From contig NZ_VISE01000001.1 of NCBI RefSeq assembly GCF_007827275.1, forward strand, positions 3,534,001 through 3,598,000: a stretch of 64,000 nt of DNA, written 5' to 3'. A program made the position numbers and the translations under genes. This document shows positions 11,128 to 32,815 of the stretch, piece after piece; the first letter of the stretch is position 1, and each line of letters opens with the position of its first letter. A model generated the notes under the pieces. That model ran no database searches, was not told the DNA's origin, and saw only the letters and a program-made list of their open reading frames with translations. This stretch comes from Gillisia sp. Hel_I_86. Lineage in GTDB: Bacteria > Bacteroidota > Bacteroidia > Flavobacteriales > Flavobacteriaceae.

Positions 11128-12936
11128 TTGAATAGAAAAGTGGATTTTTTTAAAAAATTTATTAAAAGGTATTTTGCAGGCCTCTCCTATTTTTATTCTT
11201 TTTTAGGATACAGAATTTTTGTGATTGTTTTTCTCAGTGTAATTGTAGGGCTCTTGGATGGCCTAGGTTTAACAATGTTTTTACCCCTACTACAGTTAGT
11301 AAGTGAATCAGCGACGGTTAATCCTGATTCTTTGGGGAGATTACGTTTTTTAGTAGATTTTTTCGAAGTGATAGGTATACCCTTGAATTTAGTTTCTATT
11401 CTTTGCCTTATGTTGGTTTTTTTCTTCGGAAAAGGCGTGATGCTCTACGTTTCAGGTATATATAAGGTGAATGTGCAACAATGGTTTATTAAAAAATTAA
11501 GAGTAAGTCTTGTAAAAGGATTGAATAGGCTTTCATATAAATTTTTCGTAAATACTAATTTTGGAAGAGTTCAAAATACTTTAACAGGAGAGATAAATAA
11601 GGTCTCAGGTGCATATACTGAATATTTTACATCCTTCCAGTACGGTATCCTGGTTTTTATATATATGGTTTTTGCTTTCTTTATAGATGCCCAGTTTGCT
11701 GTTTTAGTGAGTTTGGGAGGGGTTTTAACCAATTTTCTTTATAAAAATTTATATAAGAACACTAAAAAAGCTTCTCGAAAATTAACTGGTGAAAATAATG
11801 TTTTTGAAAACTTGGTAATTCAGAATATTGGAAATTTCAAGTACCTTAAAGCCACAGGAGCATCAGATAAATATACCAAAAGGCTTATAGATTCAACGAG
11901 TAGGATTGAGCAGAGCAATAAAAAAATCGGTAAACTCGATGCTTTGCTCAATGCTGGAAGAGAACCTATTCTAATAACTGTTGTAGTAGCTGTAATTATT
12001 ATTCAAATCACCTATTTCGATTCCGATCTCGGTCCTATTATAATCAGCTTAATATTTTTCTATAGGGCTTTAGGTTATTTAGTGCATTTGCAGATAAGAT
12101 GGAATAAGTTCTTGGGAACGTCTGGGTCTTTAGAGAATATGACAAAATTTAGCAGAGAATTACAAGTTAATCAGGAAAAAAGAGGAACTGTAAACTTTGA
12201 AGAACCAATTCAAACTATAGAATTGTCAAATGTTTCTTTCAATTATGAAAAAACTTCAATATTAAAAGATATTTCCTTCAGAATAAATAAAAAGGAGACT
12301 ATTGCTTTAGTGGGAGAAAGCGGCAGTGGGAAAACCACTTTAGTAAATATTATTGCCGGTTTATTGCCAGTTGATCAAGGTGAATTCCTTATAAATAAGA
12401 TACCAACGAAAGATATAAATATTAATAATCTACAAAAAAGAATAGGATATATTACTCAGGATCCTGTGGTTTTTGATGATTCGCTTTTTAACAATATTTC
12501 TTTTTGGGCCGAACGAACGGAGAAAAACCTAGAACGGTTTTGGAAGGCAGTAAATAAGGCTGCGCTTTCAGATTTTGTTAATTCCCTTCCCGAAAAAGAA
12601 AATGAACCACTTGGTCATAGCGGCATCAAATTAAGTGGTGGTCAAAAACAACGTATTTCTATTGCAAGAGAATTGTATAAAGAAGTAGAGGTTCTTATTT
12701 TGGACGAAGCAACTTCAGCATTGGATTCTGAAACAGAAATGGTCATTCAGCATAATATGGACAACCTAAAAGGAGATTATATAATTATTATTATAGCCCA
12801 TAGGATTGCCACCATTAAAAATGCTGATAAAATTGTAATAATGAAAAATGGAAGAATTTCGGAAATAGCCAGTTATGATAAATTGATTAGAGAATCGCCC
12901 TATTTCAAAAAAATGGTCCGGTTGCAGGAAATCTAA
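11128..12936 (+). CDS. ABC transporter, fused permease and ATPase (MsbA/PglK-like flippase)
   Basis: TTG start, 602 residues. The N-terminal half holds about six membrane segments; the C-terminal ATPase has Walker A GESGSGKTT (396-404), the signature LSGGQ (502-506), Walker B VLILDE (522-527) and a switch His in IIAHR. This half-transporter layout is that of MsbA and of PglK, which flips lipid-linked oligosaccharides. Because a MOP-family Wzx also exists at 33085, the locus carries two different export routes. Degraded copies of the same kind of transporter lie at 16868-17296 (C-terminal) and 23008-23460 (N-terminal). Confidence 0.85.
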   Translation: MNRKVDFFKKFIKRYFAGLSYFYSFLGYRIFVIVFLSVIVGLLDGLGLTMFLPLLQLVSESATVNPDSLGRLRFLVDFFEVIGIPLNLVSILCLMLVFFFGKGVMLYVSGIYKVNVQQWFIKKLRVSLVKGLNRLSYKFFVNTNFGRVQNTLTGEINKVSGAYTEYFTSFQYGILVFIYMVFAFFIDAQFAVLVSLGGVLTNFLYKNLYKNTKKASRKLTGENNVFENLVIQNIGNFKYLKATGASDKYTKRLIDSTSRIEQSNKKIGKLDALLNAGREPILITVVVAVIIIQITYFDSDLGPIIISLIFFYRALGYLVHLQIRWNKFLGTSGSLENMTKFSRELQVNQEKRGTVNFEEPIQTIELSNVSFNYEKTSILKDISFRINKKETIALVGESGSGKTTLVNIIAGLLPVDQGEFLINKIPTKDININNLQKRIGYITQDPVVFDDSLFNNISFWAERTEKNLERFWKAVNKAALSDFVNSLPEKENEPLGHSGIKLSGGQKQRISIARELYKEVEVLILDEATSALDSETEMVIQHNMDNLKGDYIIIIIAHRIATIKNADKIVIMKNGRISEIASYDKLIRESPYFKKMVRLQEI

Positions 12937-17680: not shown

Positions 17681-18691
17681 ATGAAAAATATTTTAGTTAC
17701 AGGAGTAGCTGGTTTTATTGGCTTTCATTTGGCGGAGAAACTTTTAAAAGAAGGTTTTAATGTTGTTGGTATTGATAATATCAATAATTACTATGACGTA
17801 AATCTGAAATACGACAGGTTGAAGGAATTGGGAATTGAGAGATCCGGGGCAGAAATTTTTAATAAGCCTGTTTCCAGTAATAAATATGACCATCTTAAGT
17901 TTATAAGACTTAATTTGGAGGATAGGGAAAACCTTCCGGAGATTTTCAAGGAATACAATTTCGAAATTGTTTGTAACCTCGCTGCGCAAGCAGGTGTGCG
18001 CTATAGTATTGAAAATCCTGAAGCGTATATAGACAGCAATGTTGTAGGTTATCTTAATCTTCTGGAATGTTGCAGGCATCATAATGTCAAACATTTAATT
18101 TACGCGAGCAGTTCTAGCGTTTATGGACTAAATACAAAAGTTCCTTTTTCCACTGAAGACAATGTAGATCATCCTATAAGCCTATATGCCGCAACTAAAA
18201 AGAGCAATGAATTAATGGCTTATACCTACAGCCATTTATATGGATTTAAAACAACAGGTTTAAGATTTTTCACTGTTTACGGACCGTGGGGGAGACCTGA
18301 TATGGCTATGTTTTTATTTACCGATGCCATAATAAAAGAAAATCCCGTTAAGGTATTTAACCAAGGAAATCTTGAGCGTGACTTTACTTATATTGATGAT
18401 ATCATAGATGGTGTTGTCAAGGTGATAAACCAAGAGAATGAGGGAGAAAAATATTCTTTATATAATATAGGCAATAGCAAACCTGTAAAACTTTTGGATT
18501 TTATCGAAGAAATTGAAAAACAATTGGGTATCGAAGCTAAAAAAGAAATGTTTCCAATGCAAGCTGGTGATGTAAACCGGACCTGGGCAGATGTAGACTC
18601 ATTAAAGCAGGTTTTTGATTATAATCCAAAAACTAATGTTAGTGAAGGCGTGAATAAATTCATTGTTTGGTACAAACAATATTACAAATAA
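17681..18691 (+). CDS. UDP-glucuronate 4-epimerase (LpsL/WbnF type)
   Basis: A 336-residue extended SDR. It has GVAGFIGFHLAEKLL for NAD binding, the group-specific segment NINNYYDVNLKYDRLKELG, the catalytic ASSSSVYG and the YAATKKSNE pair of Tyr and Lys, and FTVYGPWGRPDMA, which is typical of UDP-GlcA/UDP-GalA epimerases. With the UDP-Glc dehydrogenase at 4548 it predicts UDP-GalA supply. Its C-terminal coding sequence (from about 18546) is nearly repeated at 22837-22980, where a second, broken copy is joined to an rmlA stump. Confidence 0.85.
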   Translation: MKNILVTGVAGFIGFHLAEKLLKEGFNVVGIDNINNYYDVNLKYDRLKELGIERSGAEIFNKPVSSNKYDHLKFIRLNLEDRENLPEIFKEYNFEIVCNLAAQAGVRYSIENPEAYIDSNVVGYLNLLECCRHHNVKHLIYASSSSVYGLNTKVPFSTEDNVDHPISLYAATKKSNELMAYTYSHLYGFKTTGLRFFTVYGPWGRPDMAMFLFTDAIIKENPVKVFNQGNLERDFTYIDDIIDGVVKVINQENEGEKYSLYNIGNSKPVKLLDFIEEIEKQLGIEAKKEMFPMQAGDVNRTWADVDSLKQVFDYNPKTNVSEGVNKFIVWYKQYYK

Positions 18692-22463: not shown

Positions 22464-22836
22464 ATGAAAGGTATAATATTAGCGGGAGGATCTGGAACCC
22501 GTTTATATCCAATAACAATTTCTGTTAGCAAACAATTGTTACCTGTTTATGACAAGCCAATGATCTATTACCCGCTTTCGGTATTAATGATTGCTGGAAT
22601 TAGGGAAATATTAATCATCACGACCCCACATGATCAGGAGGCCTTTAAGAATTTACTGGGAGATGGTGCTCAAGTGGGTTGTAAATTTGAATATGCTGTA
22701 CAACCTGAACCAAATGGTTTAGCGGAAGCTTTTGTTATAGGAGAGGAATTTATTGGGAAAGATAAAGTTGCTCTAATATTAGGTGACAATATATTTTATG
22801 GTAGTGGTTTTGGATCTTTAATTAGAACTAAAACAA
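22464..22836 (+). pseudogene. rmlA 5' stump (glucose-1-phosphate thymidylyltransferase)
   Basis: The first 124 or so codons are a clean RmlA N-terminus: [16 protein letters not shown] (nucleotide-binding loop), [33 protein letters not shown] and [14 protein letters not shown]. The frame then runs into an unrelated 3' end at 22837, which is out of frame with the epimerase tail found there, and stops at 22859. All the sugar-binding and C-terminal parts are missing, so it should be inactive. The promoter side and coupling to fcl are intact, so it is probably still transcribed. The missing C-terminal third is similar to that at 1033-1364. Confidence 0.85.
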
Positions 22837-22980
22837 ATGTTTCCAATGCAAGCTGGTGATGTAAACCGGACTTGGGCAGATGTGGAATCTTTGATTAAAG
22901 ATTATGATTATAGTCCCAGTACTTCAATAAGTAAAGGGATTAAAGAGTTCGTTGCGTGGTACAAACAGTATTATCATTAA
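22837..22980 (+). pseudogene. C-terminal tail of a UDP-GlcA 4-epimerase-like gene
   Basis: 48 codons read [19 protein letters not shown], then a short variable part and FVAWYKQYYH before a stop. This matches the end of the intact epimerase at 17681 ([18 protein letters not shown], then FIVWYKQYYK), and the DNA is nearly identical over the first 35 nt. The body of the gene is absent. The join to rmlA at 22836/22837 is a chimeric junction and not a gene fusion that could be expressed in frame. Confidence 0.85.
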
Positions 22981-23007
22981 ATATTTAAAAAGAGAATAAA
23001 TCCTACA

Positions 23008-23523: not shown

Positions 23524-24540
23524 ATGTTAGACTTAAAAGATAAATCTATTCTCATAACCGGAGGAACCGGTTCTCTCGGAAGAGCTTTAACAGCTCATAT
23601 TTTAAAAAAATACCCAGATGTAAAAAAACTAATTATTTTTTCTCGCGACGAACAAAAGCAGTTCGAGATGGCTCAGGATTATCCCACGTCAGAATATCCA
23701 CAACTTCGTTTTTTCATCGGGGATGTTAGGGATGAAGCCAGAGTAAAAAGAGCTTTAAAAGGCATAGATTATGTTATTCATGCTGCCGCCATGAAGCATG
23801 TCCCTATTGCTGAGTACAATCCTATGGAATGTGTAAAAACCAATATCATGGGTGCAGAAAATATTATTAATGCTTGTTTAGAAACAGAAGTTTCTCGCGT
23901 TGTAGCACTTTCTACTGATAAGGCTGCCGCTCCTATTAATTTATATGGCGCCACCAAACTAGCTTCCGATAAATTATTTGTTGCAGCAAACAATATTACA
24001 GGTTGGAACCCTATAAAGTTCTCTGTAGTAAGATATGGTAATGTTATGGGTTCGAATGGTTCCGTAATTCCGTTTTTCTTGAAAAAGAAGAGTGGGGGAG
24101 TTTTGCCAATAACAGACCCAACAATGACCCGTTTTAATATCTCATTACAGGGAGGTGTAGATATGGTAATGCATGCCTTAGAACACGCATGGGGTGGTGA
24201 GATATTTGTTCCAAAAATTCCTTCTTACAAAATTACTGATGTAGCTGAAGCAATTGGACCTAAATGCGAAAAGCCTGTTATTGGAATTCGTCCAGGTGAA
24301 AAGATTCATGAAGAAATGATTACCGCATCGGATTCTTATTACACCTACGATTTAGGTAAATATTATACCATCCTTCCTTCAACCCATAAATGGAAATTAG
24401 AGGAATTTATTAATAATTTTAATGCTGAGAAGGTAAAACCTGGTTTTCAGTATAATTCTGCTGAAAATGAAGAATGGGAGTCGATAGAAGGCCTCAGAGA
24501 TTTAATAAAAGAACATGTAGATTCAACCTTTGAAGTATAA
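23524..24540 (+). CDS. pseB: UDP-N-acetylglucosamine 4,6-dehydratase (inverting), pseudaminic acid step 1
   Basis: The frame opens at a TTG at 23515, but the ATG at 23524 puts the catalytic residues exactly at PseB numbering: D132 and K133 in LSTDKAAAP, and Y141 in NLYGATK. NADP binds at TGGTGSLG (12-19). RDEQKQFEMA and MKHVPIAEYNPMECVKTN are also PseB blocks. It dehydrates and epimerises UDP-GlcNAc to UDP-2-acetamido-2,6-dideoxy-beta-L-arabino-hex-4-ulose. The PseC aminotransferase gene follows after 3 nt. Confidence 0.93.
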   Translation: MLDLKDKSILITGGTGSLGRALTAHILKKYPDVKKLIIFSRDEQKQFEMAQDYPTSEYPQLRFFIGDVRDEARVKRALKGIDYVIHAAAMKHVPIAEYNPMECVKTNIMGAENIINACLETEVSRVVALSTDKAAAPINLYGATKLASDKLFVAANNITGWNPIKFSVVRYGNVMGSNGSVIPFFLKKKSGGVLPITDPTMTRFNISLQGGVDMVMHALEHAWGGEIFVPKIPSYKITDVAEAIGPKCEKPVIGIRPGEKIHEEMITASDSYYTYDLGKYYTILPSTHKWKLEEFINNFNAEKVKPGFQYNSAENEEWESIEGLRDLIKEHVDSTFEV

Positions 24541-24543
24541 TTT

Positions 24544-25788
24544 ATGAACAATTCAATTCCCTACGGTCGACAAAATATTACAGAAGAAGATATTGAGGCA
24601 GTAGTAAGCACTCTAAAATCTGATTACCTAACGCAGGGTCCTAAAATTGCAAATTTTGAAGAAGCTTTTGCAAATTATGTAGGTAGTAAATATGCGGTGG
24701 CGATTTCTAATGGGACTGCTGCGTTGCATCTATGTGCCATGGCTTTAAATGTTCAGCAAGGAGATAAGGTGATCACTACTCCTATTACTTTTGCGGCATC
24801 TGCGAATTGTGTAAGGTACTGTGGTGGGGAAGTTGTTTTTGCAGATATTGATCCTAAAACCTATTTACTGGATATTGATAAAGTAAAAGAACTTCTAAAA
24901 GCATCTCCTAAAGGCACCTATAAAGGAATAATTCCTGTAGATTTTGCTGGCAGGGCGGTTGATCTTGAAGCTTTTAGAAAACTTGCTAATGAATATGGTT
25001 TATGGATAATTGAAGATTCCTGTCACGCACCCGGTGGATATTTTATGGATAGCGATTCAAATAAACAGCACTGTGGGAATGGGAATTTTGCAGATTTGGC
25101 AATATTTTCATTTCATCCAGTAAAACATATCGCCTGTGGTGAAGGTGGAATGATCACTACCAATGATGAGGAATTATATGAAAAGCTTCTCCAATTAAGG
25201 ACCCACGGAATTACCAAAAATGAAGATCAATATAAAAACTCAATAGAATTCGCCATTGGCTCGCCCGTCATGTCGAGCGGAGTCGAGACATCGGACGGAT
25301 CCCGGATTCCGAATCCCGAATCCCATGATTATCCAAACTGGTACATGGAAATGCAGGATTTAGGATATAATTACCGCTTAACCGATTTTCAGGCGGCCTT
25401 GGGTATTAGCCAGTTAAAAAGAGCAGATAAAGGTTTGGCTAAAAGAAGAGAAATTGCAGCCACCTATCTTGAGGCTTTTCAAGGTAAAGAATTTATCAAA
25501 GGTCAATCCAGAGTTGTAGAAGGCCATGCGTATCATTTATACGTACTTGAAGTAGATAACAGATTAGGCTTGTATAATTATTTACGTGAAAATAATATAT
25601 ACGCACAAATTCATTATATCCCTTGTCATTTAATGCCTTATTACAGAAATTTTGGTTGGAAGGAAGAGGATATGCCGAATGCAGAAAAGTATTATCAGCA
25701 TTGTATTAGTTTACCAATGTATCCCACGCTTACTAATGAGGAGCAAATATTTGTTATTAAAAAGGTGAACCAGTTTTATGATAAATAG
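24544..25788 (+). CDS. pseC: UDP-4-amino-4,6-dideoxy-L-AltNAc transaminase with an internal repeat insertion
   Basis: A PLP aminotransferase of 414 residues, about 40 longer than H. pylori PseC. It has IPYGRQNITEEDI, SNGTAALHLCAMAL, TPITFAASANCVRY, EDSCHAPGG and the PLP lysine K194 in FSFHPVKHIACGEGG. It aminates C4 of the PseB product. Between HGITKN (221-226) and YPNWYMEMQDLGYNYRLTDFQAALG (from 263) about 27 extra residues occur, encoded by a GC-rich palindromic repeat (25252-25335) that stays in frame. The insertion falls at a loop before the highly conserved tyrosine region, so activity may be kept. The next gene starts inside its last 11 nt. Confidence 0.9.
   Translation: MNNSIPYGRQNITEEDIEAVVSTLKSDYLTQGPKIANFEEAFANYVGSKYAVAISNGTAALHLCAMALNVQQGDKVITTPITFAASANCVRYCGGEVVFADIDPKTYLLDIDKVKELLKASPKGTYKGIIPVDFAGRAVDLEAFRKLANEYGLWIIEDSCHAPGGYFMDSDSNKQHCGNGNFADLAIFSFHPVKHIACGEGGMITTNDEELYEKLLQLRTHGITKNEDQYKNSIEFAIGSPVMSSGVETSDGSRIPNPESHDYPNWYMEMQDLGYNYRLTDFQAALGISQLKRADKGLAKRREIAATYLEAFQGKEFIKGQSRVVEGHAYHLYVLEVDNRLGLYNYLRENNIYAQIHYIPCHLMPYYRNFGWKEEDMPNAEKYYQHCISLPMYPTLTNEEQIFVIKKVNQFYDK
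25252..25335 (+). repeat. REP-like palindromic repeat inside pseC
   Basis: The text gtcatgtcgagcggagtc followed by gagacatc is an imperfect palindrome of the type common between genes in Bacteroidota (atgtc...gacat ends, gtcgag pieces). It is followed by a short tandem run of gaatccc units. The base composition is far richer in GC than the surrounding gene, and the insertion keeps the reading frame without stops. Confidence 0.75.
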
Positions 25789-26611
25789 GCAAAAAATAGG
25801 TCTTGGCACTGTTCAATTTGGATTAGCTTATGGAATAGCCAATGTTAATGGCCAAACTAAGGTTAGAGAAGTTACTGAGATTCTAGCTTTGGCAAAAAAA
25901 TATGGAATAAAGATATTAGATTCCGCTTCTGCTTATGGAAATGCTGAGGAAGTAATAGGAAATAACACTTTAAATGATTTCAAAATTGTTTCCAAATTTA
26001 TAGCTCCAAAAAATCAGGCTGTAAATGTACAATTGGAAAATAGTCTGAAAAACTTGGGTGTAAAACAATTGTATGGATACTTGGCTCATAGACCCATGGA
26101 ATTGTTAGAGTATCCAACTCAATGGAAAGAATTGCTTGAATTTAAAGAACATGGTAAAGTACAAAAAATAGGTTTTTCATTAAATGAGCCAGAAGAGCTG
26201 GAGAAATTATTGAAAAAAAATTATATACCAGATCTCGTTCAAGTTCCGTTCAATTATTTTGATAATAGATTTGAAGAATCATTAGTATATTTGAAAAGCA
26301 TTGGATGCGAGATTCATACAAGATCATCCTTTTTACAGGGATTGTTTTTTATGAAACCAGAGCTATTATCATCTTATTTTAGCGAGATAAAAGAAAATCT
26401 TAGGGAATTACAATTACTGCAAGAAGATCTTTCGGTTTCGTTACTTCGTTTTGTACTGGATAAAAGTTATATAGATAAAGTAATTATTGGAGTTGAGAAT
26501 TCTAAACAATTGAAGCAAAATATAGAAGGTTTAAAAAATGCCAAGGAATTACCCATTTTAAATAAGGATATTTCCAGGCAAATTCTTAATCCTTCGTTAT
26601 GGAAAAAATAA
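25778..26611 (+). CDS. Aldo-keto reductase in the nonulosonate module
   Basis: A 277-residue AKR-fold protein. The catalytic tetrad can be placed at D48 and Y53 (ILDSASAYG), K73 (IVSKFI) and H104 (YLAHRP). It opens IGLGTVQFGLAYGIA, as in many uncharacterised AKRs of sugar loci. It should reduce or oxidise a sugar carbonyl with NAD(P)H. It overlaps pseC by 11 nt and is followed 7 nt later by an SDR. Such a pair is not part of the canonical six-enzyme pseudaminic pathway, so it may build a variant nonulosonic acid. Confidence 0.8.
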   Translation: MINRQKIGLGTVQFGLAYGIANVNGQTKVREVTEILALAKKYGIKILDSASAYGNAEEVIGNNTLNDFKIVSKFIAPKNQAVNVQLENSLKNLGVKQLYGYLAHRPMELLEYPTQWKELLEFKEHGKVQKIGFSLNEPEELEKLLKKNYIPDLVQVPFNYFDNRFEESLVYLKSIGCEIHTRSSFLQGLFFMKPELLSSYFSEIKENLRELQLLQEDLSVSLLRFVLDKSYIDKVIIGVENSKQLKQNIEGLKNAKELPILNKDISRQILNPSLWKK

Positions 26612-26618
26612 ATCATAT

Positions 26619-27401
26619 ATGATCTACAATTTCGATCTTGGTGAAAAAACAATATTGGTTACTGGAGGGTATGGATATCTAGGCAAGGCTATTGCAGAAA
26701 GTTTGTTGTTCCATAATGCTAAGGTAATTGTGTTGGGAAGGAGTATAGAGAAATTTAAAAACGCTTTTAAGGAGAATGAATTTCTTAATAGCACCCTCTT
26801 ATTTCAAAATTGTGACATTTCAAAAACAGAGAGTATTAAGAGTGCTTTTCTTGAAATTTCAAAAAATCATTCCATCTCGGTATTAGTTAATAATGCTTTT
26901 TATTCTTCAGGGCAATCTCCGGAAAAAATGGAAGACAAAGATTGGGAAAATGGAATTGACGGTTCTTTAAATTCTGTTTTTAGAGCAATTAGAGAAATAA
27001 TCCCTTATTTTAAAAGTAGTACTGGTGGAAAAATTATAAACGTATCATCTATGTATGGAGTGGTAGCCCCAGATTTTTCGGTTTATGAAGATTCTCCTAA
27101 CTTTTTAAATCCACCTCATTACGGTGCTGCGAAAGCTGGTGTAATTCAATTAACAAAATACTATGCCTCTTATTTAGGTAAATACAATGTGAATGTAAAT
27201 ACGGTAACTCCTGGTCCTTTTCCTTCAGAATCTGTACAACAAGATGAGCGTTTTGTTAAAGCACTTGCAGATAAAACTTGTTTAAATAGAATAGGAAAAC
27301 CAAATGATTTAGGTGGTATTTTTACCTTCTTGTCTTCAGATGCCGCTAATTTTATCACCGGACAAAATATAGTAGTCGATGGTGGCTGGACCATCAAATA
27401 A
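26619..27401 (+). CDS. Short-chain dehydrogenase/reductase, PtmA-like in context
   Basis: A classical SDR of 260 residues. The cofactor motif is TGGYGYLG (15-22); the NNA strand motif appears as LVNNAFY, catalytic Ser in NVSSM (143-144), and Y168/K172 in HYGAAKAG. The C-terminal block FLSSDAANFITGQNIVVDGG is typical. In Campylobacter, the SDR PtmA belongs to the legionaminic acid locus, and a similar role is inferred here. It sits between the AKR and the NeuB-like fusion with 9 nt spacing, so one operon is likely. Confidence 0.8.
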   Translation: MIYNFDLGEKTILVTGGYGYLGKAIAESLLFHNAKVIVLGRSIEKFKNAFKENEFLNSTLLFQNCDISKTESIKSAFLEISKNHSISVLVNNAFYSSGQSPEKMEDKDWENGIDGSLNSVFRAIREIIPYFKSSTGGKIINVSSMYGVVAPDFSVYEDSPNFLNPPHYGAAKAGVIQLTKYYASYLGKYNVNVNTVTPGPFPSESVQQDERFVKALADKTCLNRIGKPNDLGGIFTFLSSDAANFITGQNIVVDGGWTIK

Positions 27402-27410
27402 ATTAAAAAT

Positions 27411-29189
27411 ATGTCATATACCATTATAGAAGTCGCAAATACTCATGGAGGAAATGCAGAATACTTGAATACACTAATTGATTCCTTTTCTCAATACAAT
27501 GAAAATATAGGTATCAAATTCCAACCCTTACACCCAGATAAATTAGCTACTACTGATTTTGTAGCTTATGAAATTTATAAAAAGTTACATTTTGAAAATG
27601 GACAGTGGAAATCTTTTATTGTTAATGCAAGCAGGACTAAAGATGTTTGGCTTGATTTGTTTGATGATTACGGAGTAGAGGTTTTAGAAGACAATATCCA
27701 ATTGGTACATGGTATCAAACTTCAAGTATCGGTGTTGTTTAATTTTTCATTGGTAGAAAAGCTTTCAGGCTTAGATTTATCAAATCTGAAGCTAATTATC
27801 AACGTTGCTTCGTTGAATGAAGAAGAGATACGATATCATTATGATAAAATCAAAGCATCGTTGAACGTAAAAGAATTACTTATTGAAGTTGGTTTTCAAG
27901 CGTATCCGACAACTATCACTGATTCTGGACTTTCAAAGATACAGGTTGTTAAAGACCTCTTTAATTGTAAAATTGTTTTTGCTGACCACGTTGATGGAAC
28001 TAACGAATTGGCGCTTTGGTTACCTGTTTTAGCTATTGCTTCAGGTGCCGATTGTATCGAAAAGCATGTGATGTTGAGTGATGATTTTAACACAGAATTC
28101 GACTTTTACTCGAGCATAACTCCTAAGAAATTTGACATCCTTATGGAAAGGGTTGCGCTTTACGACAGTTTGATGAAGGAACCTTTTATCAATAATAGAG
28201 AACAAATATATCTAACTAATTCTATTTTAAAACCTATATTAAAGAAGGATAAATATAATGGAAATGGAATTTCTCTAGTTAATGATCTTGAATATAAAAG
28301 ATCCAACAAAAATGGCATAAATGCTATAGAAATTGAGAAATTATTAAATTCATATCATATTTTATCATCAGATATAAAGGCAGGGTCGACCTTAATGAAA
28401 CATGATTTTAAGAAAGCTACCATAGCAGTTGTGATAGCTGCAAGATTGAAATCCTCGCGTTTAAAGGAGAAGGCTCTATTAAAGATAGGCTCTTTGACAA
28501 CGATTGAAAAATGTATTAAAAATGCATGTGCCTTTGAAAATGTGAATAATGTAATACTAGCGACTTCAACTTTAGATAGTGATACCCCTTTAAAAAATTA
28601 TACTTTCAGTGATAAGGTTATATTTCATAGAGGAGATCCTGATGATGTAATTGATAGGTATTTGCAAATTGTGCGTGATTTAAAAATTGATGTGATTATT
28701 AGAGTTACAGGAGATAACCCATTTATTGACAATAGTATATTACAAATTCTTCTTAATTCCCATTTTAAAACAGGAGCAGATTATACTACAGCAAAAGAGG
28801 CTGCTATTGGTACTAATTTAGAAATTATAAATTCTTCTGCATTGGAAGAGGTAAAATCCTATTTCCCTAATGCAGCCTATTCAGAGTATATGACTTGGTA
28901 TTTTACCAATAATGAAAGTTATTTCAATCTGAACTTTGTAAACCTTCCCAATGAACTAATTAGACCTTATAGATTAACATTGGATTATGATTTAGATTTA
29001 GAAATGTTTCGTAAGATTCATGAACATTTGAGCGTAAATAATACCGATTATAATCTTAAGGATGTTTTTACTTTTTTGGATGCCAATAATGAAATAAGTT
29101 CTATAAATTCCCATATCAGCGCAAAATATAAAACTGACCAGTCATTGATTGACACTTTAAATGAAAAAACAAAAATCAAGACCTTGTAA
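27411..29189 (+). CDS. Fusion of a NeuB-like synthase domain and an SpsF-like cytidylyltransferase domain
   Basis: A 592-residue two-part protein. Residues 1 to about 270 form a NeuB-type TIM barrel: IIEVANTHGGNAEYL, IGIKFQPLHPDKL, GFQAYPTTITD, VFADHVDG and GADCIEKHVML, all typical of sialic, legionaminic and pseudaminic acid synthases. A linker and small domain follow (about 270-335; SAF-like region possible). Residues about 340 to 560 match the CTP_transf_3/SpsF family: VVIAARLKSSRLKEKALL, FHRGDPDDVIDRYL, VIIRVTGDNPFID and RLTLDYDLDLEMF. It may both make and CMP-activate a nonulosonic acid. A second, complete PseI synthase lies at 30648, so this barrel may do a different job. Confidence 0.8.
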   Translation: MSYTIIEVANTHGGNAEYLNTLIDSFSQYNENIGIKFQPLHPDKLATTDFVAYEIYKKLHFENGQWKSFIVNASRTKDVWLDLFDDYGVEVLEDNIQLVHGIKLQVSVLFNFSLVEKLSGLDLSNLKLIINVASLNEEEIRYHYDKIKASLNVKELLIEVGFQAYPTTITDSGLSKIQVVKDLFNCKIVFADHVDGTNELALWLPVLAIASGADCIEKHVMLSDDFNTEFDFYSSITPKKFDILMERVALYDSLMKEPFINNREQIYLTNSILKPILKKDKYNGNGISLVNDLEYKRSNKNGINAIEIEKLLNSYHILSSDIKAGSTLMKHDFKKATIAVVIAARLKSSRLKEKALLKIGSLTTIEKCIKNACAFENVNNVILATSTLDSDTPLKNYTFSDKVIFHRGDPDDVIDRYLQIVRDLKIDVIIRVTGDNPFIDNSILQILLNSHFKTGADYTTAKEAAIGTNLEIINSSALEEVKSYFPNAAYSEYMTWYFTNNESYFNLNFVNLPNELIRPYRLTLDYDLDLEMFRKIHEHLSVNNTDYNLKDVFTFLDANNEISSINSHISAKYKTDQSLIDTLNEKTKIKTL

Positions 29190-29190
29190 T

Positions 29191-29643
29191 ATGATAACAG
29201 ACAGAATAGAAAATATTGATAAATATACATTGTTGTTTTCAGGAGTATCTCGATTAATAAAAATATTGGAATCGAAGCAATTATCTGATATCAATAGTAA
29301 AGAATCTATAGATGGCATTGACCTGATTCCCATCTTTAGTGATTCTGTTTCAGCAATTTTTGACGAAAGTGTTTTAGAAGCCCACAAAATTTTTATGGAT
29401 ATTCACATTACCTTGGAAGGAACGGATATTATTGCGTATGCTGATTTAAAAAATGAAGCTACTATTTTTCAAGAATACGATGAAACCAATGATTATTTAC
29501 TGGCAAAATCAGGTGAAATAAAAACACTAACAGTGCCGAAGGGTTATTTTTGTATAATCCCAAACACTTTTGCTCATATGGCTCTTTATAAGAATCATAG
29601 CAAAGTAAAAAAAATGGTAGTTAAAATGCCCGTTGATTTTTAA
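29191..29643 (+). CDS. YhcH/YjgK/YiaL-family protein (DUF386)
   Basis: The frame opens at 29161, but the ATG at 29191 lies 1 nt after the previous stop and gives the usual family start, MITDRIENIDKY. Conserved parts are EAHKIFMDIHITLEG, with the His and Asp of the metal site, YDETNDY, FCIIPNTFAHMALY with a second His, and the closing VKKMVVKMP. The family is a beta-sandwich with a cupin-like metal site; YhcH lies in the sialic acid operon of E. coli and an epimerase/mutarotase role has been proposed. Here it lies between nonulosonate genes, so a sugar-ring or isomer conversion is an inference. Confidence 0.8.
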   Translation: MITDRIENIDKYTLLFSGVSRLIKILESKQLSDINSKESIDGIDLIPIFSDSVSAIFDESVLEAHKIFMDIHITLEGTDIIAYADLKNEATIFQEYDETNDYLLAKSGEIKTLTVPKGYFCIIPNTFAHMALYKNHSKVKKMVVKMPVDF

Positions 29644-29646
29644 ACG

Positions 29647-30651
29647 ATGAATTATTATAAAGTCCTCAATAAACAAGTTTATACATTTGGAAAGTATTCT
29701 ATAGTGCCACTTAGGACAGAAGATCGCTATGAGATTATGAAATGGCGCAATGAACAGATGTACCATTTAAGACAAAATGAACCTTTAACCAAAGAAAAAC
29801 AAGATAGTTATTTTGATGTTGTAATTTCAAAACTCTTTGAGACAGATAAACCAGATCAAATTTTGTTTTCTTATTTAGAAGGAAAAAAATGTATTGGTTA
29901 TGGTGGCTTGGTACATATCAACTGGGTAGATAAACATGCGGAGATTTCTTTTATAATGGATACTGAATTAGAAAAGGAATATTTTGATACCCATTGGAGT
30001 AATCTTTTAAATTTGATTGAACAAGTTGCGACAAAACTTAAATTACATAAGATTTTTACCTATGCCTATGACTTAAGACCTCATTTATATTCGGTATTGG
30101 AAAACAATAACTACAGGAGGGAAGCAGTTCTGAATGAGCATTGTTTTTTTGAAGATAAATATCTTGATGTAATTATCCACTCCAAAATGCTTAGAAACTG
30201 TATTTTAAGGAAGGCTACTAAGACCGATGTTGATATAACTTTTCGATGGGTGAATGACCCTGAAATAAGAAGCTTTTCGTATAATCAAAATAAAGTTTCC
30301 CAAAAAAATCATACTCAGTGGTTTTATTCAAAATTGCATGATACCAATTGTGAATATTATATATTGGAAAATCATGGCACAGCTACAGGTTCATTGCGTT
30401 TTGATTTTAATGATAGGAACGAGGCAAAAATAAGTTATTTGATAGATTCCAAATTTAAAGGGAAAGGCTTAGGTACAACAATTTTAAAGAAAGGTATAAT
30501 CTCAATCAAAAATGATAGACCTGATATAAAAAGCGTTTTTGGCTATGTATTAGAGGGAAATAAAGCTTCAATTCGAATCTTCGAGAAGTTAAAATTTGAC
30601 CTTATAGAGAGAAATGACTCGGAATTTAAATATGAAAAAGAAATAAAATGA
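29647..30651 (+). CDS. Tandem GNAT acyltransferase, candidate PseH function
   Basis: A 334-residue protein with two GNAT-like halves. The first (about 15-180) reads IVPLRTEDRYEIMKWRNEQ; the second (about 185-334) reads LRKATKTDVDITFRWVNDPEIR and has the acyl-CoA loop KFKGKGLGTTIL and the terminal NKASIRIFEKLKF. Both begin like the RimJ/RimL-type enzymes that also include PseH, which acetylates the C4 amine of the PseC product. The protein overlaps pseI by 4 nt, so it belongs to the same operon. The first half lacks a clear Gly-rich loop and may be inactive or structural. Confidence 0.7.
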   Translation: MNYYKVLNKQVYTFGKYSIVPLRTEDRYEIMKWRNEQMYHLRQNEPLTKEKQDSYFDVVISKLFETDKPDQILFSYLEGKKCIGYGGLVHINWVDKHAEISFIMDTELEKEYFDTHWSNLLNLIEQVATKLKLHKIFTYAYDLRPHLYSVLENNNYRREAVLNEHCFFEDKYLDVIIHSKMLRNCILRKATKTDVDITFRWVNDPEIRSFSYNQNKVSQKNHTQWFYSKLHDTNCEYYILENHGTATGSLRFDFNDRNEAKISYLIDSKFKGKGLGTTILKKGIISIKNDRPDIKSVFGYVLEGNKASIRIFEKLKFDLIERNDSEFKYEKEIK

Positions 30652-31673
30652 AAATAGGAAATTATAATATAAATAATGATTCACCAGTATTTATTATCGC
30701 AGAATTATCTGCAAACCATAACGGGAGTTTAGAAACAGCATTAAAAACTGTAGAAGCAGCTAAAAGGGCAGGGGCAGATTGTATTAAGCTACAAACCTAT
30801 ACAGCTGATACTATAACAATAGATAGTGACAAAGAAGACTTTAAGATAAAAGGAACCATTTGGGAAGGGAAAAATTTATACAATTTATATCAAGAGGCCT
30901 ATACGCCTTGGGAATGGCATAAGGAAATAATGGAAGCCGCTAAGAAAGAGGGTTTATTGTGTTTTTCATCTCCCTTTGATAAAACGGCGGTAGATTTTTT
31001 GGAAGGTTTAGACGTTCCAGCTTATAAAATAGCCTCTTTCGAAATTACCGATATTCCTTTAATAGAATATACTGCCTCAAAAGGGAAACCTATAATAATT
31101 TCTACAGGAATTGCCGAGAAAGAGGACATTGAACTGGCTTTAGACGCTTGTATAAGAATGGGGAATAAGGATATTGCATTGTTGAAATGTACCTCCTCGT
31201 ATCCTGCACCCATAGAAGAAGCCAATATGGTCATGGTAAAGGACTTGGCAGATCGTTACGGAGTAATCTCCGGACTGTCGGACCATACTATGGGAAGTAC
31301 CGTGCCTGTGGTTGCAACCTGTTTTGGGGCCAAGATTATTGAAAAACATTTTATTCTAGATAAATCTATTGGAGGTCCTGACGCTTCATTTTCTATGGAT
31401 GAAAAAGAATTTACAGATATGGTAACAGCGGTTAGAGAGGCAGAAAAGGCCATGGGAAAAGTGGATTATTCCCTTACCGAAAAACAAAAAAAAGGGAGAG
31501 ATTTTAGCCGATCACTTTATGTAGTAGAAGACATTAAAATGGGAGAAGTGATTACTAAAAAAAATGTAAGGAGTATTAGACCGGGCTTCGGGATGCATCC
31601 TAAGTATTTAAAAGACTTTCTGGGAGAAAAGGCAGATAAGAACTGGATAAAGGGTGATCGATTTACTAAATAA
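30648..31673 (+). CDS. pseI: Pseudaminic acid synthase
   Basis: A 341-residue NeuB-family enzyme. It has FIIAELSANHNGSLETAL, ADCIKLQTYTADTITID, AYKIASFEITDIPLIEY, LKCTSSYPAPIEEANM, GLSDHTMG and IIEKHFILDKSIGGPDASFSM, then a C-terminal SAF domain with RSLYVVEDIKMGE and the PseI-type ending RSIRPGFGMHPKYL. It condenses the dephosphorylated 6-deoxy sugar with phosphoenolpyruvate to give pseudaminic acid. Pathway steps PseB, PseC and PseI are present, but no PseG (UDP-sugar hydrolase) or canonical PseF was found in the window. Confidence 0.92.
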   Translation: MKIGNYNINNDSPVFIIAELSANHNGSLETALKTVEAAKRAGADCIKLQTYTADTITIDSDKEDFKIKGTIWEGKNLYNLYQEAYTPWEWHKEIMEAAKKEGLLCFSSPFDKTAVDFLEGLDVPAYKIASFEITDIPLIEYTASKGKPIIISTGIAEKEDIELALDACIRMGNKDIALLKCTSSYPAPIEEANMVMVKDLADRYGVISGLSDHTMGSTVPVVATCFGAKIIEKHFILDKSIGGPDASFSMDEKEFTDMVTAVREAEKAMGKVDYSLTEKQKKGRDFSRSLYVVEDIKMGEVITKKNVRSIRPGFGMHPKYLKDFLGEKADKNWIKGDRFTK

Positions 31674-31699
31674 TTTATTTACTTACTTGCAATGAATCT

Positions 31700-32815
31700 A
31701 TGATAGATGAAAATTTTATAAGCACTGCATATAGCACAATGGAAAGAGGTTTTCCTGAAATCCGTAAAAGGAAAAGGCAAATGGCGGGTCGCTCTCTATT
31801 AAAAATTTTTCTACGAATATTTTTTGTTAAACCGGAAGAGACCCACGAGAAAATATTTTTGCTGCACCCCAAACCGGAAATTCAAAAAATATTTACAGAT
31901 GCTATAAAACTGGATATAAATAATTCAGCATTTTTAAAGAAAGCCTTATTTTATCTTCAGCTTGGGTATATATCTCCAAATGATAGAATTCGTGTTTGGG
32001 CAGCAAAGAGGGGTTATAATTATTTGCAATACTATTTTAGGCCGTCAAATATTACAATCTTAAACTGTGGCCCTTCCATATTAAGTCCGTTTTTGGCAAA
32101 ATTATGTGAAGATAAGAATGATGATAGTAAGTATTATATTATTCAACATGGTTTATATCAACTTAATAATATGCCTTATGAATTTGAATTCAGTATAAAG
32201 GCCAGCAGATCTGTTGTATGGAGTAGCCTGCTTGCCCAAAATTATATTGCTTTAGGGATTGCTTCTGAAAAAATTCATGTGCTGCCCACCTATTTATTCA
32301 GGGAAATAAAAGAGCTGAATAGATCTAATAAAGTTTTAATTATTGGTGAATCGTTAAATAAAATTAACACTGAATTTGATGTGGAATATCAGGAAAAATT
32401 ACTGGAAGTTATAAATTATTTAAAGTTGAATTCAAAGTACAATGATTTTCATTTTAAAAAGCATCCACGTGCTTTATCATCTCCTGAATTAGATACTGCT
32501 TTAGAAAATAATTCTGTAAAACTCACGGATAAAATTAATTTAAACAATTACGGCTTGGTAATTGGTGCCATTTCCACTTTAATGATTGAAGCCATGGCTG
32601 AAGGCTGTCGCGTGTTACAAATTTCCCTGGAGAATTGTCAATCTTTAAACGTGGGGGATTATTCTTTACATACTAGCGCTGAGAATTTACAGGATATTAG
32701 AGAAGTAAGCAAAAAAATAGGCAGTTTGGACAATTTAGAATATAATTTTATAAACAGAGAATTTTTACGAGTGGATAATAATTTTGAAGATTACTATAAA
32801 CAATTATTAGAGTAA
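31700..32815 (+). CDS. Putative GT-B glycosyltransferase, candidate nonulosonate transferase
   Basis: A 371-residue protein that I cannot place by full-length resemblance. Two short motifs are suggestive: KKHPRAL near residue 254 and GAISTLMIEAMAEGCRV near 291. An HP motif followed by an S-S/T motif is shared by bacterial sialyltransferase families GT38, GT52 and GT80, which use CMP-sugars. It directly follows pseI with 26 nt spacing, where a transferase for the CMP-nonulosonate would be expected. The N-terminal 60 residues are basic with a short hydrophobic stretch (SLLKIFLRIFFV). This assignment is inference from motifs and context. Confidence 0.5.
   Translation: MIDENFISTAYSTMERGFPEIRKRKRQMAGRSLLKIFLRIFFVKPEETHEKIFLLHPKPEIQKIFTDAIKLDINNSAFLKKALFYLQLGYISPNDRIRVWAAKRGYNYLQYYFRPSNITILNCGPSILSPFLAKLCEDKNDDSKYYIIQHGLYQLNNMPYEFEFSIKASRSVVWSSLLAQNYIALGIASEKIHVLPTYLFREIKELNRSNKVLIIGESLNKINTEFDVEYQEKLLEVINYLKLNSKYNDFHFKKHPRALSSPELDTALENNSVKLTDKINLNNYGLVIGAISTLMIEAMAEGCRVLQISLENCQSLNVGDYSLHTSAENLQDIREVSKKIGSLDNLEYNFINREFLRVDNNFEDYYKQLLE

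Follow-up and report, generated by a model that had tools for sequence, protein, structure and literature searches.

The canonical pathway to cytidine monophosphate (CMP)-pseudaminic acid (Pse) uses PseB, PseC, PseH, PseG, PseI and PseF. Three described systems resemble the locus reported here. In Acinetobacter prophages, EpaA (CTP_transf_3 plus Aldo_ket_red domains) and EpaB, a short-chain dehydrogenase/reductase (SDR) of the adh_short_C2 family, convert Pse5Ac7Ac to its 8-epimer (PMC12053666). The Pse cluster of Vibrio sp. B9-25K2 (PMC7371886) contains PseB, PseC, an SpsF-type enzyme fused to an aldo-keto reductase (AKR), a dehydrogenase, a PseH domain and a NeuB homologue, and it keeps PseG. 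In the Bacillus subtilis sps pathway, whose product is legionaminic acid, SpsF is a putative cytidylyltransferase and SpsE stands in the synthase position, as separate proteins (PMC7439481). We analysed an operon at positions 23524-32815 of a 64,000-nucleotide stretch, called the window, of the complete Gillisia sp. Hel_I_86 genome (1 contig, 4,245,106 bases, 4.25 Mb). This operon shares PseB, PseC, PseI and a PseH-type domain with the canonical pathway; here, however, no PseG was found, one half of a fusion protein is an SpsF-type enzyme in place of PseF, and an AKR, an SDR and a YhcH protein are extra. At a probability of roughly two in three, we read the operon as encoding a pathway of the CMP-pseudaminic acid type, with a PseH-like GNAT-fold domain, here named GNAT_N, as the replacement of PseG, a reading that draws on sequence comparison.

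Every open reading frame (ORF) in the operon is intact, and the genes follow the order PseB, PseC, AKR, SDR, NeuB-like/SpsF fusion, YhcH, tandem GNAT and PseI, which agrees with an earlier sequence-only reading of this DNA. PseB, PseC and PseI, which it had described as complete, all exceed their curated NCBIfam cut-offs, and Pfam confirms the domains that it had listed for the AKR, the SDR, the NeuB-like/SpsF-like fusion, the YhcH-family protein and the tandem GNAT. A CMP-pseudaminate operon would be recognised by these three enzymes, a CMP-nonulosonate synthetase domain and PseG, and all but PseG are present. The tandem GNAT protein reaches 79 bits with the PseH model TIGR03585, below the cut-off of 93.1. 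The features, in window coordinates, are:

23524-24540, + strand: PseB, uridine diphosphate (UDP)-N-acetylglucosamine (GlcNAc) 4,6-dehydratase (inverting); TIGR03589, 508 bits (cut-off 408).
24544-25788, + strand: PseC aminotransferase; TIGR03588, 464 bits (cut-off 424).
25778-26611, + strand: AKR, EpaA-C-terminal-like accessory enzyme, putatively for C8 epimerisation; PF00248, 95 bits.
26619-27401, + strand: SDR, EpaB/AciE-like accessory enzyme, putatively for C8 epimerisation; PF13561, 148 bits.
27411-28415, + strand: NeuB-like half of the 592-residue fusion, a divergent barrel with a weak SAF-like end; PF03102, 48 bits (over 22.1).
28416-29189, + strand: SpsF-type cytidylyltransferase half of the fusion, probable CMP-nonulosonate synthetase (PseF role); PF02348 (CTP_transf_3), 84 bits.
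29191-29643, + strand: YhcH/NanQ-like DUF386 protein, possible anomerase; PF04074, 86 bits.
29647-30195, + strand: GNAT_N, PseH-like GNAT-fold domain, proposed PseG replacement; scores 311 bits with profile A2, which includes it.
30196-30651, + strand: GNAT_C, PseH-type N-acetyltransferase half with an intact loop (GKGLG); best TIGR03585 stretch, residues 191-324.
30648-31673, + strand: PseI, pseudaminic acid synthase; TIGR03586, 514 bits (cut-off 340).
31700-32815, + strand: 371-residue protein, candidate nonulosonate glycosyltransferase; weakly similar (27%, E 2e-5) to the reading frame that follows PseI in locus L082.

The lack of PseG extends beyond the operon. Searching the whole genome with the PseG model TIGR03590 gave a sole match of 25 bits, located inside MurG (298 bits to murG), and profile A1, made from four PseG-like proteins, returned nothing up to E=10 in a search without its own positive control. 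Both tools recognise PseG elsewhere: TIGR03590 gives 129-210 bits on the PseG of three related clusters and also matches B. subtilis, and A1 detects PseG in 43 of 47 PseG-bearing clusters. The sequence-only reading had noted that the operon lacks PseG, and we recognised none in the rest of the genome either. It had also proposed looking elsewhere in the genome for homologues of PseG and PseF; this yielded a NeuA-type gene outside the operon and no PseG.

We then compared 395 genomes drawn from the window's phylum, Bacteroidota. PseI exceeded its cut-off in 56 of them and PseG was present at E<=1e-20 in 57, with 47 of the latter among the 56 that carry PseI. These 56 genomes divide into 47 with PseG only and nine with GNAT_N only, with none carrying both and none carrying neither. 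The nine genomes with PseI and without PseG are that of the window (G000) and G084, G154, G170, G174, G226 and G289, all of the window's family, plus G072 and G279 from two other families. Using the window domain alone as the query, we found a GNAT_N homologue with 37-63% identity in each of the eight other PseG-less clusters. Profile A2, built from GNAT_N of the nine genomes, scores 261-323 bits in exactly these nine, followed by G124 with 80 bits; the remaining matches among the 395 stay under 55 bits. Recognition by the window domain alone and the failure of A2 to score strongly in any of the other 386 genomes are both independent of how A2 was made. If nine genomes were assigned at random, the chance of the 47/9 split would be 1/C(56,9) = 1.3e-10, uncorrected for kinship, a value that overstates independence because seven of the nine genomes belong to one family. 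A hidden, divergent PseG was considered as well and rejected: none was found in the window's genome, and at E<=0.01 the eight other PseG-less genomes gave no PseG match in two cases and partial matches of 18-23 bits in six.

GNAT_N also resembles PseG in its genomic setting. When all 56 PseI clusters were surveyed (a census of ~11 kb per side, labelled by BLAST and profiles), GNAT_N was seen to occupy the operon slot of PseG, and both are found fused to PseH, GNAT_N to a PseH-type domain in 3 of 9 clusters and PseG to PseH in 26 of 47. The cluster of G174 consists of PseB, PseC, NeuA, GNAT_N, a formyltransferase and PseI, and that of G092 is identical except that PseG stands in for GNAT_N. In the minimal cluster of G154 (PseB-PseC-NeuA-[GNAT_N-PseH]-PseI), GNAT_N alone is without an assigned role. 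The presumed acylating partner of GNAT_N is a PseH-type enzyme in five clusters, the formyltransferase in G174, another GNAT in G084 and a PylC-like ATP-grasp protein in G072 and G279, fused in G279 to GNAT_N itself. GNAT_N is thus retained when the PseH-type gene is replaced, and because it co-occurs with any of these partners it is probably not the acylation step.

By sequence family, in contrast, GNAT_N is unlike PseG. All nine members match the GNAT superfamily model PF13420 (Acetyltransf_4), and at E<=0.01 they match GNAT models only, and not TIGR03590. The named model that most of them match is PseH (TIGR03585; 8 of 9, the window copy at 28 bits), making GNAT_N a weak relative of PseH with which it may share a UDP-sugar pocket. 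It differs from PseH in having a separate gene next to it, either PseH-type or the presumed substitute, and in the acetyl-coenzyme A (CoA) glycine loop (beta4-alpha3). In a MAFFT alignment this loop has a glycine in 39 of 39 PseH-like domains; in GNAT_N the GxG is found in 0 of 9, with one lone glycine in one member and no glycine in eight. The polar residues that do not vary among the members of A2 include R34, N35, R42, H90, E99, D142, R144, H165, D174 and H178, numbered by the window copy. A model of Helicobacter pylori PseH places the UDP-amino sugar in a nucleotide pocket (PMC4363471), and such a pocket suggests a possible path from acetyltransferase to hydrolase.

The order of steps that we infer is as follows. 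PseB and PseC would produce UDP-4-amino-4,6-dideoxy-L-AltNAc, whose N4 would be acetylated by the PseH-type GNAT_C. GNAT_N, on the same chain, would hold the resulting UDP-diacetamido sugar in the site of its PseH-like ancestor and free UDP, and PseI would join the released sugar to phosphoenolpyruvate. The fusion's SpsF half would then make the CMP-sugar, the AKR and SDR would probably invert C8 in the manner of EpaA and EpaB to give 8-epi-pseudaminic acid, and the 371-residue protein may transfer it. We put it at slightly better than even that a loop-less GNAT-fold domain is a nucleotide-sugar hydrolase of this kind, derived from PseH or a close GNAT that kept the UDP-sugar pocket and took water for the acyl donor. 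The tandem protein would then be a bifunctional GNAT-GNAT acetylase/hydrolase, and the replacement of PseG would have recurred in Bacteroidota and in a phage. Titles and abstract openings in one library of open-access literature held nothing on a GNAT replacing PseG.

Several observations weigh against a hydrolase role for GNAT_N. Profile A2 was made from the very genomes on which it is tested, and seven of the nine GNAT_N genomes come from one family. A1 marks no PseG around PseI in 4 of the 47 PseG genomes (G225, G275, G283 and G341); PseG is encoded close by in G225 (101 bits), and the remaining three carry it on other contigs. In one further genome (G679, 3.1 Mb, completeness not stated), that of locus L005, there is neither PseG (E<=0.01) nor GNAT_N (best 23 bits), and its cluster holds PseB, PseC, PseI, a formyltransferase and a NeuB-like/SpsF pair. 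The GNAT profile match in all nine members would also suit an unusual acyltransferase, a fold predicted for the tandem GNAT from one sequence was poor (predicted local distance difference test, pLDDT, 42) so that the model was not used, and we know of no GNAT-fold nucleotide-sugar hydrolase. Within the Pse cluster of L005 there is a DUF218 (YdcF-like) gene at 11792-12367 (62 bits); it may be another solution for UDP release, or the L005 assembly may be incomplete.

The alternative that survives best, though we consider it rather unlikely, is that GNAT_N is an acyltransferase for another position or a non-catalytic partner of PseH, that UDP is freed by an unrelated or housekeeping enzyme, and that the pattern among genomes is inherited cassette linkage. 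The Acetyltransf_4 match and the weak likeness to PseH are what an acyltransferase would show, but the missing GxG loop argues against one. Cassette linkage fits the family bias of the nine genomes; however, a quick tree built from 57 PseI proteins requires at least four changes between PseG and GNAT_N, two of them forced by starred (well-supported) branches. On this tree the PseG-bearing G068 is sister to the GNAT_N-bearing G170 (support 90), and the GNAT_N-bearing G072 is sister to the PseG-bearing G166 (support 93). Moreover, 0 of the 395 genomes have both PseG and a strong GNAT_N match. An unrelated enzyme for UDP release has no candidate in the G154 cluster, which is without any other unassigned gene.

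The sequence-only reading had suggested that the NeuB-like barrel, the YhcH-like protein or the AKR/SDR pair may release UDP or make an isomer, and UDP release by any of them now appears very improbable. These proteins are indeed present in an operon where PseG is not, and L005, with its NeuB-like/SpsF pair, likewise lacks PseG. We nevertheless rejected all of them as PseG substitutes, because they are found together with PseG or are absent from other PseG-less clusters: the fused relatives in G363 and G070 have PseG, the PseG-bearing clusters of G034, G171, G108 and a Priestia plasmid also contain AKR and SDR, YhcH is found in only 1 of 56 clusters, that of the window, and the other eight PseG-less clusters have neither YhcH nor the fusion. 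AKR alone occurs in some PseG-less clusters too. The part that does track the loss of PseG is GNAT_N, which the sequence-only reading had listed and not proposed for the UDP step. Decay of the operon, with PseG lost and no nonulosonic acid made, would fit the truncated rmlA and epimerase tail seen by eye just upstream, but it is highly improbable given that all operon genes are intact and that the PseG-less arrangement with GNAT_N recurs in nine genomes of three families. The upstream junction, at 22464-22981 and immediately before pseB, joins the truncated rmlA (131 residues) to a tail that, by eye, resembles the NAD-dependent epimerase gene (17681-18691) at its 3′ end, and it is likely a recombination scar at the left edge of the Pse cassette.

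The CMP-transferase step has a more ordinary explanation. The census found an SpsF-type enzyme only in 34 of the 56 PseI clusters, a NeuA-type only in 18, both in 1 and neither in 3. Since SpsF-type cytidylyltransferases are thus present in 35 of 56 Bacteroidota Pse clusters, their replacing PseF is nothing unusual, and an SpsF-type enzyme in a Pse operon has already been described for the Vibrio cluster (PMC7371886). The nearest relatives of the fusion are in G363 (53%, fused), G070 (51%, fused) and L005 (53%, two adjacent genes). In the clusters of G363 and G070, which encode PseB, PseC, PseG and PseI, the stretch read has no labelled CMP-transferase besides the fusion. The absence of another labelled CMP-transferase there makes the SpsF half the likely PseF replacement, so that the earlier proposal to this effect gains support from the fused relatives, although the idea is not new. 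The genome's other CTP_transf_3 proteins are one read as KdsB and the NeuA-type protein outside the operon. The latter's gene adjoins a NeuC-type gene at 596-598 kb (L068 16065-17963), and a NeuB-type gene lies at ~568 kb (L067 8023-9021), ~28 kb from this NeuC-like/NeuA-like pair. Together these genes suggest a second, sialic-acid-like pathway in the same genome.

Structure prediction bears out the two-part nature of the fusion. In an AlphaFold model computed from six sequences (pLDDT 73.6; residues 252-293 and 301-334 under 50), the SpsF half has its best Foldseek match to the Leptospira cytidylyltransferase 6oew (E 2.7e-14), and the NeuB-like half matches the NeuB-family synthases 3g8r, 8h2c, 6ncs and 1xuu. 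We defined 43 near-invariant positions, each at least 93% conserved in 67 canonical synthases, and numbered them by the window PseI. Four window-type NeuB-like domains keep 20 of the 43 (in at least three of the four), including E19, H24, K47, K127, H213, H234 and R311; positions lost include S130, S152-T153-G154, C181 and S211. A weak guess is that this half may serve the CMP step by handling the nine-carbon product, and does not synthesise that product. Pairs of NeuB-like and SpsF-like domains were also found in legionaminate-type operons (L056 9615-11486 and L057 8340-10630), which have their own NeuB-family synthase, NeuC and a PtmE-like gene, with YhcH in L057, and in the archaeal contigs L006 and L007. 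Because of these occurrences the pair seems to be a unit common to several nonulosonate pathways. Neighbourhoods were read for part of the weaker matches of the fusion search. Some of these matches are lone SpsF-type proteins and some are SpsF genes with a NeuB-like gene next to them; the rest are different fusions, namely reverse-order SpsF-NeuB, a NeuB-like-SpsF type from another group, SpsF-aminotransferase and SpsF-AKR. In the reverse-order fusions at L059 7869-9614 and L071 8847-10640, an SpsF-type domain comes first and a canonical NeuB-type synthase second, and both adjoin a gene that looks, by eye, HAD phosphatase-like.

The accessory genes bear on the identity of the product. AKR is encoded in 19 of the 56 Pse clusters and AKR together with SDR in four (G000, G034, G171 and G108), and the NeuB-like/SpsF fusion is found in 3 of 56. 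The window SDR shares 59% identity with its counterpart in L072, a Pse operon that has PseG; among the 25 listed of 231 NCBIfam models none exceeds its cut-off on it, the best being PRK09186 (166 against 255), with PtmA at 114 against 350. A Priestia megaterium plasmid has the order pseC, 'spore coat protein', AKR, SDR, pseG, pseH, pseI, in which the 'spore coat protein', judged by its place, is probably an SpsF-type gene. The window operon shares CTP_transf_3, Aldo_ket_red and an adh_short_C2 SDR with EpaA/EpaB, a likeness in domain content, and differs from them in having AKR and SDR as separate genes and a cytidylyltransferase joined to a NeuB-like domain where EpaA has it joined to AKR (PMC12053666). 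Because the SpsF half, AKR and SDR make up the EpaA/EpaB domain set, the product is likely to be 8-epi-Pse. This leaves plausible that part of the sequence-only reading's new nonulosonic acid derivative which concerns a product other than plain Pse, here the 8-epimer made through the AKR/SDR pair. Mass spectrometry would not distinguish epimers of Pse. Weighing against an 8-epimer, the Vibrio cluster, which has a similar gene content, has a product that was reported as PseAc2 from mass spectrometry (PMC7371886). The YhcH gene likely starts at 29191 and not at 29161, and its protein scores 43 bits with the N-acetylneuraminate anomerase model NF040884, below the cut-off of 160. The 371-residue protein matches neither Pfam nor NCBIfam models, and no solved structure in the PDB matches it credibly.

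We also looked for GNAT_N-like proteins outside the 56 genomes. A PseI match under the cut-off was present in six genomes, among which G336 has PseG, G124 has a GNAT_N-like gene, and G206, G224, G248 and G347 have neither. The G124 protein (L112 16697-17236, 80 bits) is a distant relative in a nonulosonate-type cluster without PseG, and is perhaps an intermediate of the GNAT_N family. Ten genomes have PseG without PseI over the cut-off, with the cluster read for G261 alone. Low-scoring A2 matches (44-55 bits, 12 genomes) have no PseB, PseC or PseI label among their listed neighbour ORFs, and most of these GNATs have the loop glycines by eye. Searches for GNAT_N gave no match at E<=1e-5 in plasmid records or at E<=1e-3 in phage records, nor did a search of the phage records with the SpsF-AKR fusion from G342.

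A pattern search of IMG/VR with A2 yielded one match, 28% identical, on a 52-kb tailed-phage contig with terminase and portal genes (IMGVR_UViG_3300032053_000109; L109/L111), and the search for further viral relatives returned the same contig only. The neighbours of this GNAT_N-like gene encode an SpsF-type protein, a Gfo/Idh-like protein (by eye), a PseC-like protein, a formyltransferase, a 197-residue NeuB-type protein, PseB (47%) and a Maf-like protein. This Pse-like operon is compact and lies partly between the terminase small and large subunit genes. Across the 13.8 kb read, BLAST gave no ORF a PseG label, and the GNAT_N-like protein has no RxxGxG-type motif.

If GNAT_N does replace PseG, annotation pipelines would overlook a complete Pse pathway wherever this has happened, because the hydrolase matches acetyltransferase models only. 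The replacement would, as far as we know, be a chemistry new to the GNAT fold, and it would show clearly how an enzyme can evolve from a neighbour in its pathway. It would also predict which Flavobacteriaceae-type genomes make Pse and, through the AKR/SDR pair, which of them may make its 8-epimer.

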